Below are positions 2,792 to 29,271 of a stretch of 31,189 nucleotides of DNA, one piece after another (position 1 is the first letter of the stretch; every line of letters begins with the position of its first letter). The notes under the pieces are model-generated. The model had not been told where the DNA came from, did no database searches, and saw nothing but the letters and a program-made list of their open reading frames with translations. This DNA is from a virus. The DNA lies in IMG/VR virus record IMGVR_UViG_3300020347_000681, positions 1 through 31,189 of that record; one strand, given 5' to 3'. The position numbers and the translations under genes were made by a program.

Positions 2792-3574
2792 ATGCCGTTC
2801 GACATTACTCAATTCAAATCAGCAATGAATCGATTCGGTGGGCCGGCTCGTTCTTCCCTCTTTGAGGTTACAGTCACTCCATATAAGGATGGTTCCATAG
2901 GTACAAACAGAGCCTTTGGAACTCGAGAATTTTCATTCTTTTGTAAGACAGTAAACATGCCCGGTATCGTTTTCGCCACAGCAGAAAATGCCCAGGTAGG
3001 TCAATTGCCCACAGCGATGCCAACGGGCATCTCAGCAAGACCACTTGAGACTATTTTTATGTGTGATTCAGATCACCAGGTATTGTCATTCTTTCACCAA
3101 TGGGCACAGAATGTCATGAACTATGGCACAAAGGGTGGACCATTTGCTCAGATCGATAATAAATTACCCTTTGAGATAGGCTATCGTGATGAATATGCTT
3201 GTCGTGTGACTGTCAGACATTACAGTACAGAAAGCTTTTCAAACAAATATTATGAGGTCATTTTAGATAAGTGCTATCCAACCATTGTCGGTGACCTCGA
3301 TCTATCGTGGGAAAACAACGACAGCTATCTCACGCTACCAGTCTCGTTCAATTATAAGAGAATCGAATACTCTGGTGAAAAGTCTGGATCGCCCACATCT
3401 CGTTTAAATCGCGGTACTGGCCTACTTGATATTCTTGGTGCTGTGGCAGGATTTGCAGATGTCGTAAGACAAACAACTAGGGGTGGAAAACCAACATCAA
3501 TTCAAGATGCTGTAAACAGAGTGACAAGGGTTACAGATTCATTTGATAATATTAGCAATACGCTAGGAATTTAA
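2792..3574 (+). CDS. Tail-tube-fold protein, probable baseplate tube initiator gp54-like
   Basis: The 260-aa product begins MPFDITQFKSAMNRFGGPARSS, then a beta-rich region with FFCKTVNMPG (about 47-56), TAMPTGISARPLETIF and VLSFFHQWAQNVMNYG, then CYPTIVGDLDLSW and LPVSFNYKRIEYS. This pattern (CK-x-x-x-(M/L)PG near residue 50, a W after the third strand, YPT...L...(F/Y)..Y near the end) is that of the gp19/gp54 tail-tube superfamily. The length and the C-terminal 50-residue extension fit gp54 better than the shorter tube protein gp19. Start 2792 follows AGGGGATA. The frame also opens upstream at 2696, but that part overlaps the previous gene and lacks a ribosome site. Confidence 0.6.
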   Translation: MPFDITQFKSAMNRFGGPARSSLFEVTVTPYKDGSIGTNRAFGTREFSFFCKTVNMPGIVFATAENAQVGQLPTAMPTGISARPLETIFMCDSDHQVLSFFHQWAQNVMNYGTKGGPFAQIDNKLPFEIGYRDEYACRVTVRHYSTESFSNKYYEVILDKCYPTIVGDLDLSWENNDSYLTLPVSFNYKRIEYSGEKSGSPTSRLNRGTGLLDILGAVAGFADVVRQTTRGGKPTSIQDAVNRVTRVTDSFDNISNTLGI

Positions 3575-3591
3575 ATTATTAGGAGTATATT

Positions 3592-4293
3592 ATGGCTTTG
3601 CCAAAAATCGACTTACCGATTTCTGAAATGGAGTTGCCATCAACTGGCAAGAAAATAAAATATAGACCATTTACGGTTAAGGAAGAAAAGATTCTACTGG
3701 TTGCGCAAGAATCAGAAGATCCAGAACAAGAATTGCTTGCAGCAAGACAGATAGTAAATAATTGCTTGATTGAATATGACGTTTCTAATCTGGCAATGTT
3801 TGACCTAGAATATGTGCTTTTACAATTACGATCTAGGTCAGTAGATAATAACGTATCGTTTACAATCACTGATCCCGATACAGAAGAAACGGTAGTATTA
3901 GATCTTGACATTACAGCAGTAAAGGTGACAAAGGATGATCGCCACACGAATGAGGTAAGGGTCAATGATGAATATGTTTTGTTTTTAAAGTATCCGACCA
4001 TTGATGAGTTTGCACAGATTATTAAGTTAAACCCAAAAGACCCACTTGTGAATTATTATATCATGGTTGCTTGTTTGGAAAAGGTTGCTTCAGAAGATGA
4101 GATTCACGATTTTAGTGAATATACGCAAGAAGAAATTGATACATTTATGGAAGAAATGCCAGGTGAGGTAATTAAGGGTGTTCAATTATTTTTTGAGACG
4201 ATGCCTAAATTACGTCACGAGATGAAATATAAGAACAAAGAAGGAAATGAAAAGACATTCGTTGTGGAGGGTATGCGCAGTTTTTTTTCCTAA
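3592..4293 (+). CDS. 26: Baseplate hub assembly protein gp26 (T4_baseplate family), candidate frameshift donor
   Basis: The 233-aa product carries the gp26 family signature: ELPSTGKKIKYRPFTVKEEKIL near residues 14-35, RQIVNNCLIEYDV, FDLEYVLLQLRSRSV and a C-terminal GVQLFFETMPKL segment. In T4, gp26 is required for hub assembly and is not a major virion component. The start follows TTAGGAG. The last codons are TTT TTT TCC TAA inside a run of eight T. The stop overlaps the next ATG (TAATG), and a strong stem-loop follows immediately. A -1 slip would replace the last residue and stop with a 55-residue extension, giving a 287-aa fusion. That behaviour would be like the tail assembly chaperones of lambda and its relatives. 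Confidence 0.85.
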   Translation: MALPKIDLPISEMELPSTGKKIKYRPFTVKEEKILLVAQESEDPEQELLAARQIVNNCLIEYDVSNLAMFDLEYVLLQLRSRSVDNNVSFTITDPDTEETVVLDLDITAVKVTKDDRHTNEVRVNDEYVLFLKYPTIDEFAQIIKLNPKDPLVNYYIMVACLEKVASEDEIHDFSEYTQEEIDTFMEEMPGEVIKGVQLFFETMPKLRHEMKYKNKEGNEKTFVVEGMRSFFS

Positions 4294-4352
4294 TGCTGTG
4301 CCATATTAGTCTTGGCGATTTTTATCAAATGGTGTTCGCCTTGGCACAGCAT
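4281..4352 (+). promoter_or_regulatory. Candidate programmed -1 ribosomal frameshift signal: slippery T8, 5-nt spacer, 11-bp stem-loop
   Basis: The zero frame of gene 26 reads T TTT TTT at 4281-4287, a heptamer on which P- and A-site tRNAs can both re-pair in the -1 frame. A 5-nt spacer (4288-4292) leads to a perfect 11-bp stem, arms 4293-4303 and 4342-4352, ATGCTGTGCCA against TGGCACAGCAT. An inner 5-bp helix pairs 4314-4318 with 4336-4340, leaving a 17-nt apical loop. The -1 frame reads TTC CTA ATG and continues into the 53-codon gene with no stop. All three elements of a classical frameshift signal are therefore visible; that it works is inference. Confidence 0.7.
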
Positions 4353-4454
4353 CATAAATATTCGATATCGGATATTGAAGGGATGATTCCTTACGAAAGG
4401 GATTTATATTTTCAAATGTTAATTAACTACATTGAGAAGCAGAAGGAGACCTAA
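4293..4454 (+). CDS. Small tail assembly protein, frameshift extension of gp26 (GT-like T domain candidate)
   Basis: A 53-codon frame runs from ATG 4293 (overlapping the gene 26 stop as TAATG) to TAA at 4452-4454. It encodes a helical peptide with FYQMVFALAQHHKYSISDIE and IPYERDLYFQMLINYIE segments. The gene is too short for ordinary calling but is clearly coding: it is open throughout, overlaps both neighbours by one A, and its 3' end holds the AGAAGGAGA ribosome site of the next gene. It lies in the -1 frame relative to gene 26. It could be made separately by re-initiation or as the C-terminal part of a gp26 fusion. Order and size match the T part of G-T chaperones; a distant gp51 counterpart is another possibility. 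Confidence 0.72.
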   Translation: MLCHISLGDFYQMVFALAQHHKYSISDIEGMIPYERDLYFQMLINYIEKQKET

Positions 4455-4732
4455 TGAAACTTGATCAGAAATTCGAAAATCCACACGGTACCAAGTTGGC
4501 CCTGCTCGAACGAGAAACTCGTAAGATGAAAAAGACCAACGCGAAGAAAGAGTACCTTAAGATGCGTATTTCAATGTTGAAAATTGAACGAGACAATCCT
4601 AATAATGATGACTATGATTCTCAATGGTACAATAGACTCATACAAGAACTAGAATGGGCTGAAAGCATACTTCTCAGTGATAACTACCCTAAGACTAGTA
4701 ATTGTTTTATGGAGAACGAATTAAATGGCTGA
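4454..4732 (+). CDS. Small charged protein of unknown function in tail operon
   Basis: The 92-aa product is rich in Lys and Glu with predicted helical segments (residues about 14-50, then 57-75), and no family is recognised. The ATG overlaps the previous stop by one base and follows AGAAGGAGA. Its own stop lies 8 nt inside the tape-measure-like gene, so it is tightly coupled to both. Its place between a chaperone-like gene and a tape-measure-like gene suggests an assembly role, perhaps a scaffold or chaperone for the long protein. That is inference from position. Confidence 0.7.
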   Translation: MKLDQKFENPHGTKLALLERETRKMKKTNAKKEYLKMRISMLKIERDNPNNDDYDSQWYNRLIQELEWAESILLSDNYPKTSNCFMENELNG

Positions 4733-6554
4733 ATTATCGGCTGAAACACAAGCCATCGTCGAAAGGCTCCAAGCAGAAGGTAAACTTTTAAGGAATACCG
4801 GCTCAAATTCAATTCGATCTGTGAAGGTTGAATTGTCAAAATTTGAAGGCATCTTTAATACTATCTCAAACAATATCACTTCGCAAACGGAGACAATGAG
4901 AGCATCAATGGGTGCTCAGGCAGATATTGCAGAGAGAGAAAGAGAACAGGCTGCACGACAACGAGCGTTTGATGATTTGGAACAAGATTCTGAATCTGCA
5001 GAATTAAAAGCCTTACGCGATAAGGTAGAGACACAGAAGCTTAAGAATGATTTGGCGTCAGAAAAGGATAAGGCCAAAGGCGATGGTCTCTTTAAGAAGT
5101 TAAGTGGTCTTGGTGGTCTCAAAATACTTGGTGGTGGTCTTTTAGCTGTCGGTGCTCTCGCAATAGGATATGGATATCTGAATTCGAAAACCGATGGTGG
5201 TTTGGATAGAATGGTACTTGCCATTAAAGAAACTGGCTGGAAGAAGATTTCCGAGTCGATGAATCTAATTGCAGAAAAGACACCACTGATTCTTACCCAA
5301 TTAGAAAATGCATTAAAACCAGAAAACCTAGAGGCACTGGCAAAGGCAGCGGGGGCTGCAGCAGTTGCAGGTCTTGGTATTGGTGCTTTAGCCAAATTAG
5401 GACCATCTTTAATTGAAGCGGCAACTGCAGGATATTTGGTCAATGAGGTAAGAAAGGCCAGAGCTGGAACGCCTGGTACTGTTGCTCCGGGTGGAGATGG
5501 TCCTGATAAAGACAAGAAAATGAAATTTCAAAGGCCAGGCCTGAAGAGTTTTACAGTAGCTGGCCTTGCTACATATGCCCTATCTGCACTAATGCCAAAA
5601 ATTGGTGATTATATTCGTGGCAATATTATGGGTATGACACCGACTGAAATTGCAAATAAGAAGTACGATGCCATAGATTTTGGTGGGACAGTATTAAAAT
5701 ATGCTACGATCGGATCGATGTTTGGAGTAAAAGGTGCTCTTGTTGGTGCAGGAATTGGTGCAGCAATTGGTATTGGTGAAAAGATTGTAGACGTTATACG
5801 CGATGATCTTTATGATGAAGGTGCTATCACGAATAGAATGGAAGACGCGCTTGAAGAAGTAGAGCGCATCAAAACAGATGCAGAAGATAAATTGATCGCG
5901 ATGACTAAAAAGCGTGAAGAATTATCTAAGAATCTCACCGAGGCCCAGCTTGAAAATATTGGACTTGGAAATGATGCGATTCAGGCTCAGAGAGATATCG
6001 TAGATGCAGAAAAGGCAGCAATTCAGAAAGCTGCAACAGAGGCAGCCCAAACATCTGCAAGACAAATTCAGGCAGAAATTGATGAATTGACAGAGAAAGA
6101 ATTTAGAGCTAAAAGAGTAAGTCCGAATCCTAGAGGAAGAGACGAGAGTGATGAAGCCTATATGAGGGCAAAGGCTAAGTTCGATAAAGAACGTCTAGAT
6201 GAAATTTTGAGACTACAAGGGCAACAAAATCAAACAATCCAGACAGCAATAGAAGCTGGTGCAGATCCGGAAGCTATTCAAAGAACATTAAGTAGTATTG
6301 AAACTCCACCCGCTGAACGCAAAAGAGTTGCAGACCAGATGGCAAGGGATCTGGGTCTTACTCGATCCGTTAATGATATAATCAGTAGTGTCACAGGGGC
6401 ATCTACGGCCAATCAGACACCCATAATGATGCAGACAGTTAATAATGTGGTAGGTCCAACGACAACCTATAATGGTGGTTCTAACTCACAAACTACTGTA
6501 AGTGTGCCATTTCTAGGACCTGTAGGTGGCTCGGGTACAGGATTGGGTGGATAA
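4725..6554 (+). CDS. Tape-measure-like tail protein (gp29-position hub protein)
   Basis: The 609-aa product has a long helical N-terminal region with charged coiled-coil character (residues about 55-125), a Gly/Ala/Leu-rich hydrophobic segment near 128-151, another Ala-rich one near 205-225, and a Gly/Ala/Ile-rich stretch near 335-352. A second coiled-coil region (about 370-500) and a Thr/Asn/Gly-rich C-terminus follow. This make-up is typical of tape-measure proteins. T4 gp29, the hub protein that sets tail length, has 590 aa, so the size fits a T4-length tail. No sequence motif proves homology to gp29. The start at 4725 follows GGAG at 4711-4714 and overlaps the preceding gene. An alternative is another virion structural protein. 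Confidence 0.6.
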   Translation: MAELSAETQAIVERLQAEGKLLRNTGSNSIRSVKVELSKFEGIFNTISNNITSQTETMRASMGAQADIAEREREQAARQRAFDDLEQDSESAELKALRDKVETQKLKNDLASEKDKAKGDGLFKKLSGLGGLKILGGGLLAVGALAIGYGYLNSKTDGGLDRMVLAIKETGWKKISESMNLIAEKTPLILTQLENALKPENLEALAKAAGAAAVAGLGIGALAKLGPSLIEAATAGYLVNEVRKARAGTPGTVAPGGDGPDKDKKMKFQRPGLKSFTVAGLATYALSALMPKIGDYIRGNIMGMTPTEIANKKYDAIDFGGTVLKYATIGSMFGVKGALVGAGIGAAIGIGEKIVDVIRDDLYDEGAITNRMEDALEEVERIKTDAEDKLIAMTKKREELSKNLTEAQLENIGLGNDAIQAQRDIVDAEKAAIQKAATEAAQTSARQIQAEIDELTEKEFRAKRVSPNPRGRDESDEAYMRAKAKFDKERLDEILRLQGQQNQTIQTAIEAGADPEAIQRTLSSIETPPAERKRVADQMARDLGLTRSVNDIISSVTGASTANQTPIMMQTVNNVVGPTTTYNGGSNSQTTVSVPFLGPVGGSGTGLGG

Positions 6555-6594: not shown

Positions 6595-7134
6595 TTAATA
6601 GCTGTATAATTTCAAATAGTCAATAATCACCTGTGGAGCAGTTTCTCCATAAGGATCATCAGTCGCATTATCTCTCATACCAGGCTCTTCAAAGAACCTT
6701 TCAATTACACCGCCTTTCACTACCATGGCATATCGCCACGATCTCATACCAAATCCAAGATTTGACTTGTCGACAAGCATACCCATCTGTCGAGTAAATG
6801 TTCCTGTTCCGTCAGGAATCATTTTTATCTTTTCAACACCTTGATCTTTTGCCCATTTATTCATTACAAATGAGTCGTTAACCGAAGCACAATAGACCTC
6901 GTCAACACCAAGCTCACGAATCAGATCATAGTTTTCTTCAAAACCTGGAACCTGAAAGGTAGAGCACGTAGGGGTAAAAGCACCCGGCAAAGAAAAGATC
7001 ACGACTCTTTTTCCATTACAAATGTCGTTTGTTGAGAGCGTCGACCAGCGATAAGGGTTATCACCACCGATAGATTCATCTCGTACACGAGTTTGAAATG
7101 TGATAGAAGGTACACGTCGTCCACTTAAAAACAT
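6595..7134 (-). CDS. Prx5-type peroxiredoxin
   Basis: The 179-aa product is a thiol peroxidase of the Prx5/redoxin type that reduces hydrogen and alkyl peroxides. The active-site motif PGAFTPTCS at residues 50-58 carries the peroxidatic Cys57. Other cysteines are Cys39 and Cys82, and the active-site Arg is likely in the MRSWRYAMVV segment. The GVDEVYCASVND and FVMNKWAKDQG blocks match the family. No glutaredoxin domain is fused. The gene is 29 nt downstream of hsp20, has a GGAGATATA ribosome site, and is followed by a strong terminator, so the two form a stress-protection operon. It probably limits oxidative damage in the infected cell. Confidence 0.93.
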   Translation of the reverse strand: MFLSGRRVPSITFQTRVRDESIGGDNPYRWSTLSTNDICNGKRVVIFSLPGAFTPTCSTFQVPGFEENYDLIRELGVDEVYCASVNDSFVMNKWAKDQGVEKIKMIPDGTGTFTRQMGMLVDKSNLGFGMRSWRYAMVVKGGVIERFFEEPGMRDNATDDPYGETAPQVIIDYLKLYSY

Positions 7135-7163
7135 ATTATATCTCCATGATAAAATTGCAAATA

Positions 7164-7619
7164 CTACTCAGTTAAGAGTGTTTTGTCACCATTAATTTTG
7201 ATCTTCTTGGGCTTTTTCTCATCTGGAATGACACGTTCCAAGTGAATTGTTAAAAGACCATTGACAAATTGAGCATCTCTCACCTCAATATCTTCTGCAA
7301 CAGAAAAGTTACGAGTGAATTTTCGGAAAGAAATCCCACGGTGAAGCATATCTCCACCACCATTGAAGTAATCACCTTGCTCATCCCATGTGGAACGAAC
7401 AGTTAGATTGCCATGTGCTACTTCTATCTCAACGTCATCCTTATCAAGTCCAGCAAGTGCCAGATCGATAAAGAAATCGTCATCTTGTCTACGAATGTTG
7501 TAGGGCGGGAATCCTGTATTATTTCGATTCATGTGATCGGACATCGTTTCGAGTCGATCAATCATTCTATCAAAACCTACAGTGAAGGGGGTCAAATGGT
7601 TAATGTTTAAACCAGTCAT
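7164..7619 (-). CDS. Small heat-shock protein Hsp20 (IbpA-like)
   Basis: The 151-aa product has an IbpA-like N-terminus (FDRMIDRLETM, then GFPPYNIRR), an alpha-crystallin domain at about residues 36-130 with DLALAGLDKDDVEIEV, LHRGISFRKFTRNF and the conserved NGLLTIHLER motif, and a C-terminal KPKKIKI tail that includes the oligomerisation I-x-I. Such holdase chaperones bind unfolded proteins and are common in marine T4-like phages. The ATG follows AAGGAG. Because of the late promoter upstream, expression is expected late, possibly to help virion proteins fold or to protect the host cell until lysis. Confidence 0.95.
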   Translation of the reverse strand: MTGLNINHLTPFTVGFDRMIDRLETMSDHMNRNNTGFPPYNIRRQDDDFFIDLALAGLDKDDVEIEVAHGNLTVRSTWDEQGDYFNGGGDMLHRGISFRKFTRNFSVAEDIEVRDAQFVNGLLTIHLERVIPDEKKPKKIKINGDKTLLTE

Positions 7620-28754: not shown

Positions 28755-28783
28755 ATTATATCAGGTTTGAAGCTGTTTGTCAA
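28755..28783 (-). promoter_or_regulatory. Sigma70 consensus promoter for 2OG oxygenase-uvsY
   Basis: The minus strand shows TTGACA (28783-28778), 17 bp, TATAAT (28760-28755), full consensus, overlapping the end of the tail-tube-like gene. The start point is predicted at about 28748, 0-2 nt before the 28746 ATG. Confidence 0.86.
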
Positions 28784-29271
28784 CCAGAAATTGTATTGAC
28801 CTTAAAATCATCATACCTGAATGTCACACTGACTTTGGGATATGTAATATCAGTCTGTGTAATGTCAAGATCAACAGAGCTCATACTTGTGGGGAAGGCA
28901 TTGGTAAAGACGAATTCCTTATTAGGATTTTTATGGCTATTCAGAATCAATACACGAATATCACTTACCAAACCTGCCTGCGAAGACTTGACAGCCTTGA
29001 ATTGGTCTGTCGAGTCTGGAGTTCCAAGACCTTCCATCCAACCTAAAACCTCGAGATAGTTTTGCATATCTTCATCAATCACAAAGCTCAGATCCAGATC
29101 ACCATATGTCAATCGATCACCGGTGGCGTATAGTGCCTTTAGTGGGTTCGCGACCTCGACTGGAGAACTTGCGATATCTGGTATTGTAAGAGTCTGAGTG
29201 AAGAACTCGACGTTCGGCAATCGTTCAATAGATATTGTGAATGAGGCCGGTGATAGGTAATTAGTAATCAT
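28780..29271 (-). CDS. Virion structural protein with tail-tube-like fold
   Basis: The 163-aa product begins MITNYLSPASFTISIERLPNV, then FFTQTLTIPDI, LTYGDLDLSFVIDEDMQNYLEVLGWM, VLILNSHKNP, FTNAFPTSMSSVDLDIT and VSVTFRYDDFKV. This order (two N-terminal strands, a PG/PDI turn, VDEDxxNY...W, FPTSL, F-Y-Y) recurs in structural proteins of marine T4-like phages and resembles the gp19 tail-tube superfamily. It is embedded among DNA-metabolism genes: its ATG overlaps the gene 52 stop as ATGA. A late octamer inside gene 52 could supply late expression. Exact role (tube, baseplate or completion) is not clear. Confidence 0.7.
   Translation of the reverse strand: MITNYLSPASFTISIERLPNVEFFTQTLTIPDIASSPVEVANPLKALYATGDRLTYGDLDLSFVIDEDMQNYLEVLGWMEGLGTPDSTDQFKAVKSSQAGLVSDIRVLILNSHKNPNKEFVFTNAFPTSMSSVDLDITQTDITYPKVSVTFRYDDFKVNTISG

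Follow-up and report, generated by a model that had tools for sequence, protein, structure and literature searches.

A programmed -1 frameshift very probably fuses the gp26-type protein of an uncultured marine virus lineage to a gp51-type domain, so that one locus would give rise to a short and a long form of a tail assembly chaperone. The window, that is, the whole stretch of DNA analyzed here, comprises the 31,189 nt of the record IMGVR_UViG_3300020347_000681. We propose that most ribosomes would translate the gp26-type gene up to the TAA at position 4291 and so produce the short form of 233 aa. On a smaller share of ribosomes, which an 11-bp stem lying 5 nt past the slip site would slow down and a Shine-Dalgarno-like GGAGG 10 nt upstream would probably assist, both Phe-tRNAs would move back by one base on T TTT TTT; translation would then continue in the -1 frame to give a 287-aa long form whose C-terminal domain is of the gp51 type. 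If the two forms divide their work as lambda G and GT do, the tape measure protein would be covered by the short form, and tail tube subunits would be brought in through the additional domain of the long form. We infer slippage in cells, its efficiency and its role in assembly from the conserved signal, homology and the predicted fold. The original prediction, in which gp26 together with the downstream peptide was considered the counterpart of the lambda G/GT pair, is supported by conservation, covariation, homology to T4 gp51 and the predicted chaperone fold.

The gp26 junction in the window

The reading frame of gene 26 closes with the codons AGT TTT TTT TCC TAA, and the window sequence contains a run of eight T at 4281-4288. 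The elements of the junction and the adjacent genes are the following:

2792-3574, + strand: tail tube family gene, 5' of gp26 (phrog_45 tail tube, E = 8e-36)
3592-4293, + strand: gp26-type gene, 233 aa, putative short-form tail assembly chaperone (TAC-N) (PF12322, phrog_150, AF2 model)
4266-4271, + strand: Shine-Dalgarno-like GGAGGG, with 9-10 nt between its end and the slip site
4281-4287, + strand: slippery heptamer T TTT TTT for the proposed -1 shift (from the sequence; in-frame T TTT TT[T/C/A] in 127 of 129 distinct junctions)
4287-4454, + strand: -1-frame extension that encodes the gp51-type C-terminal domain of the predicted long form (TAC-NC, 287 aa), with 55 codons after the shift and a stop codon
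4288-4292, + strand: 5-nt spacer TCCTA between slip site and stem (from the sequence)
4291-4293, + strand: 0-frame stop codon TAA, end of the short form (from the sequence)
4293-4303, + strand: 5' arm of the stem, ATGCTGTGCCA (11 bp compared across 42 distinct sequences, with 92% of the cells paired)
4314-4340, + strand: inner helix GGCGA/TCGCC (4314-4318 with 4336-4340), not conserved
4342-4352, + strand: 3' arm of the stem, TGGCACAGCAT, the exact complement of ATGCTGTGCCA in reverse (conservation as for the 5' arm)
4454-4732, + strand: 92-aa ORF located after the chaperone and before the putative tape measure, with an ordinary start and AAGGAG 4 nt upstream
4725-6554, + strand: putative tape measure protein of 609 aa, so designated only from its position and from hydrophobic segments rich in Gly/Ala

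The predicted in-frame T TTT TTT and 5-nt spacer proved exact to the base, the 11-bp stem is perfectly paired, and the -1 frame is indeed open into the next ORF, so that slipping by one base yields a fusion of 287 aa instead of the 233 aa made without a slip (junction ...GMRSFFFLMLCH...). In a single genome, the heptamer is unremarkable: when Ser-Phe-Phe is resampled according to the codon usage of the gene, T TTT TTY appears in 42% of the cases. Because the heptamer alone is unsurprising in one genome, the case rests on comparison across relatives.

Conservation of the frameshift signal and alternative explanations

We compared 192 junctions, 129 of them distinct, which were collected from 80 IMG/VR relatives, from loci retrieved with Syn1-, Cr30-, and S13-type queries, and from phage records. 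An in-frame heptamer lies ahead of the stop codon, usually 10 nt upstream, in 127 of the 129 distinct junctions (T TTT TTC in 87, T TTT TTT in 39, and T TTT TTA in 1); in every contig that includes its end, the -1 ORF continues for 48-66 codons beyond the stop. Elsewhere in the gene bodies, a single in-frame T TTT TTY was found across all 129 genes. Among the Syn1-type cyanophages, the second Phe codon of the heptamer is TTC in 64 of 64 sequences, compared to 23% TTC among the Phe codons of the gene body. A tblastn search with the -1 peptide produced matches in 545 phage records, chiefly those of cyanophages and vibriophages. Judging from these sequence comparisons, the joint pattern of heptamer and -1 ORF is not due to chance. 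The three features that the original prediction anticipated downstream of gp26 in related phages, namely, the T run, covariation of the stem (in the window's clade; see below), and an open -1 frame, were all found.

The two distinct junctions without the standard heptamer are those of L012 and of Vibrio phage K355. In L012 (5749-5761), and identically in L014 and L015, the first base of the heptamer is G; the resulting G TTT TTT appears to be a weaker slip site, comparable to the GTTTTT motif of Vandenendeviridae. Vibrio phage K355 (L088:4640-4848) retains gp26 and the -1 extension, with the heptamer replaced by A CTT TTC; its ORF could begin at TAATG, and a switch away from frameshifting to another mode is possible. 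In Rhizobium phage RHph_I1_18 (L086:4690-4740), T TTT TTA is located 34 nt ahead of a later stop, so that the short form has about nine extra residues as a tail. A gp51-type extension in the -1 frame with a T TTT TTY slip site is present, with no annotated gene, directly 3' of gp26 in Cronobacter phage S13 (L085:4679-4845), and also in Aeromonas phage Ah1 (L092:3718-3887) and Acinetobacter phage SH-Ab 15599 (L094:3727-3890).

Covariation of the stem was analyzed in the 42 distinct sequences of the window's clade. Sliding the partner of the 11-bp stem by 1-3 columns reduces pairing from 92% to 21-52%, and 23 compensated cells were observed, compared to 11.8 in shuffles, with none of the 500 shuffles as high. 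Compensation occurs chiefly at columns 19-66, where U-A, A-U, U-G, and G-C are all present; these changes replace Cys with Ser on the 5' arm and alter a third codon position on the 3' arm. RNAalifold recovers the inner nine of the 11 pairs unaided, and all nine are present in 34 of the 42 sequences. Frequent double changes are confined to one or two of the stem pairs, and a tree-aware pair test of columns 19/66 on supported branches found too few independent pairs for significance. Part of the stem overlies conserved L-A-Q-H codons, so that coding constraint contributes to its conservation. The inner 5-bp helix, which had been predicted as part of the structure, is present in the window but is not conserved, with all five pairs in only 12 of the 42 relatives, and was rejected as a component of the signal.

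In the Syn1-type cyanophages, we specified by hand a different, 8-bp stem that starts 7 nt past the slip site and is 84% paired, with no covariation above that in shuffles; a helix through the T run that RNAalifold produced from a mixed cyanophage alignment was discarded as meaningless. The mean folding energy is lowest around the slip site and junction in both the window's clade and the cyanophage clade. The divergent clade of L183-L199 conserves T TTT TTC with no clear stem directly after it, and the folding energy in the L183 clade is not lowest at the junction. A search against Rfam found no family.

Upstream of the slip site, GGAGGG at 4266-4271 is a probable stimulator of the frameshift. 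When a stretch covering 201 nt before and 30 nt after the slip site was scanned for pairing with the anti-Shine-Dalgarno sequence, the strongest mean pairing was located at -14 to -17 from the slip site in three clades; the motif sits on conserved E-G codons, so that coding constraint contributes here, too. The layout of the window signal resembles the three-part signal of Escherichia coli dnaX, which consists of a Shine-Dalgarno-like element about 10 nt upstream, a slippery heptamer, and a stem about 5 nt downstream. In dnaX, the slip site is A AAA AAG, and frameshifting yields the shorter product, whereas in the window, the slip site is T TTT TTT, the gene is unrelated, and the frameshift would yield the longer product.

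The 53-codon ORF downstream of gp26 had originally been described as a gene, and its product could also be made by translational coupling, whereby ribosomes that have stopped at the gp26 TAA would start again at the ATG that overlaps it (TAATG) and synthesize a free 53-aa gp51-like protein. In support of this possibility, gp51 is annotated as a separate gene in public records, and among the 61 distinct sequences of the clade, the codon at this position is ATG, as in the window, in 28 and GTG in 17. However, it is GCG in 9 and ACG in 7, with 18 changes on the tree, and 43 of the 129 distinct junctions lack a start codon in their vicinity. There is no Shine-Dalgarno sequence near 4293, in contrast to the AAGGAG ahead of the next gene at 4454; phages S13 and Ah1 hold the -1 ORF without any annotated gene there; and T4 gp51 corresponds to the full-length fusion form (see below), so that a free tail peptide has no counterpart in T4. 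Given that the ATG is not conserved, frameshifting is the only route to the peptide that is shared by the relatives, and we rejected re-initiation as the general route and consider it very improbable as the explanation of the locus. Re-initiation had also been proposed to operate alongside the frameshift such that both products are made; the ATG is there in the window, but with a start codon that is not conserved, this would be a side route at most. Rather than an independent gene, the ORF is apparently the gp51-type C-terminal extension of gp26.

The eight-T run present in the window and its nearest relatives would also permit slippage of the RNA polymerase, with the addition or loss of a U resulting in mixed mRNAs, some of which would be translated into the fusion. 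Slippage on runs as short as T6 or T7 is usually weak, and most of the relatives have only T6 or T7 (T6C in all sampled Syn1-type cyanophage junctions), which makes transcriptional slippage an extremely improbable explanation; selection for the in-frame phase, the stem at 5-7 nt, and the Shine-Dalgarno-like element at 10 nt also fit ribosomal rather than transcriptional recoding. Homopolymer runs are, furthermore, prone to sequencing errors, and an indel in such a run, or pseudogenization, could split one gene into two ORFs. This reading is already contradicted by the conserved -1 peptide and by the frame relation, which recurs across 129 distinct junctions taken from numerous assemblies and from isolate genomes, and its probability is negligible.

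Relationship to gp26 and gp51 of T4

The gp26-type protein matches PF12322 (T4_baseplate; E = 6e-53) and phrog_150 (E = 5e-57). For the -1 peptide, the matches are phrog_634, 'baseplate hub assembly catalyst' (gp51; E = 2.8e-21), and positions 231-276 of phrog_150, the C-terminal part of that family. Both T4 gp26 (208 aa) and T4 gp51 (249 aa) match PF12322 and phrog_150, and gp51 additionally matches phrog_634; thus, gp51 is a gp26-like protein with a tail of the -1-peptide type. The -1 extension and the C-terminus of T4 gp51 share 33% identity. For the placement of T4 gp51 relative to the gp26 proteins, we used a 14-sequence alignment and the PHROG matches instead of a MAFFT alignment that was set aside because the C-terminus was misplaced.

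In T4, genes 26 and 51 are separate and divergent, and the heptamer is absent from the gp26 genes of five two-gene phages (T4, 44RR2.8t, 50AhydR13PP, KP15, and JSE), so that the phages compared here would rely either on slippage or on a second full-length gene. The short and long forms are encoded by two genes in T4 and would come from one gene in the window phage; no second full-length gp26 paralogue with a C-terminal extension was found in the 31-kb record, which is a genome fragment.

The AF2 model of the window's gp26 has a pLDDT of 88.8. The best PDB matches of residues 1-93 are 3FGX (Z = 8.5), HK97 gp13 2OB9 (7.3), and YqbN 3KLU (6.2), all of which are phage tail assembly chaperones (PMC9603447); these Z values are modest and pertain to the N-terminal domain only, with a wide gap to the next match at 2.5. 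Foldseek alone yielded weak matches for the model, and a search of PDB with the gp26 sequence gave no match. The predicted structure supports the assignment of the gp26-type protein as the short form of a tail assembly chaperone.

Known frameshifted chaperones and gene neighborhood

Frameshifted tail chaperones are already known in most long-tailed phages, and the window harbors the T4-family version of this known kind. In lambda, there is a division of labor, with the short form coating the tape measure and the long form recruiting the tube. Lambda gpG and gpGT arise because ribosomes slip by -1 close to where the gene for the short chaperone ends, and both the short form and the form with the C-terminal extension cooperate with the tape measure protein (PMC5009743). 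The window locus very probably shares this arrangement; its extension is a gp51-type domain, and its slip site is T TTT TTT.

The original prediction was unaware of any frameshift described in gp26 homologues, but the two forms of T4-like chaperones and their slip sites of the poly-T kind are credited to an earlier study (Vladimirov, Gautam & Davidson 2022 Virology 566:9-15, as cited in PMC10885494 and PMC12846349). According to the citing passages, some T4-like phages do without frameshifting and instead carry one gene for the short form and another, longer one for the fusion (PMC10885494), and poly-T slip sites are present in T4-like TAC-N genes (PMC12846349). From the PF12322 and phrog matches of the T4 proteins, we read the chaperone genes of that study, as they are summarized there, as 26 and 51. 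The short/long pair is common to these chaperones and the window; compared to the T4-like chaperones of isolates, gp26 of the window lineage is 42% or less identical, and a covarying stem and a Shine-Dalgarno-like element are documented here. The Shine-Dalgarno-like element may be a new detail beyond the known T4-like chaperones, and the covarying stem, along with its replacement by another stem in cyanophages, may be a further one. For phage Adele and Vandenendeviridae/Andersonviridae, the cited portion of PMC12846349 describes the same short/long frameshift scheme in other myoviruses: TAC-N ends in a poly-T motif at which a -1 shift is conserved, and the extension carries a gene annotation of its own. 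The poly-T slip at the TAC-N end and the separately annotated extension are shared with the window; the Adele type differs in that it belongs to other phage families and has the motif GTTTTT, and that portion of the report mentions no downstream stem.

A broader generalization, which we advance tentatively and consider possible rather than probable, is that in most T4-superfamily phages outside T4, RB49, 44RR, and KP15, gp51 exists only as the frameshifted tail of gp26, under a dnaX-like three-part signal with a fixed slip site and a lineage-specific stem. If so, the separate T4 genes 26 and 51 would represent a state reached by duplication and free of slippage, and hundreds of genomes of cyanophages and vibriophages would have an annotated gene '51' that is not independent. 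The proposed frameshift by itself, without this generalization, places an abundant marine phage group within the lambda G/GT scheme, and the 'baseplate hub assembly catalyst gp51' of such genomes is most likely the frameshift product, either annotated separately or missed. We read the T4 gp26/gp51 pair as the short and long forms of one chaperone, the ratio of which would be set by frameshifting in the relatives and by two separate genes in T4, a directly testable proposition.

The gp26-type gene is flanked upstream by the tail tube gene (phrog_45) and is followed, beyond the 92-aa ORF, by the 609-aa gene without a detectable homologue. A gene of similar size occupies the place of the 92-aa ORF in Cr30, phiM7, RHph_I1_18, and OLIVR5. 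The position of the gene at 4725, which had been predicted to be tape-measure-like, is that of the annotated tape measures in Cr30 and RHph_I1_18, but its product had no tblastn match in 50,697 phage records and no similarity to the Cr30 tape measure; it is a putative tape measure, by its position only. The ends of the protein are coiled-coil-like. Two genes of the phrog_45 tail tube family, at 2792-3574 and 28780-29271, are far apart on opposite strands, and peroxiredoxin-like and Hsp20-like genes at 6595-7619 on the minus strand adjoin the tail genes.
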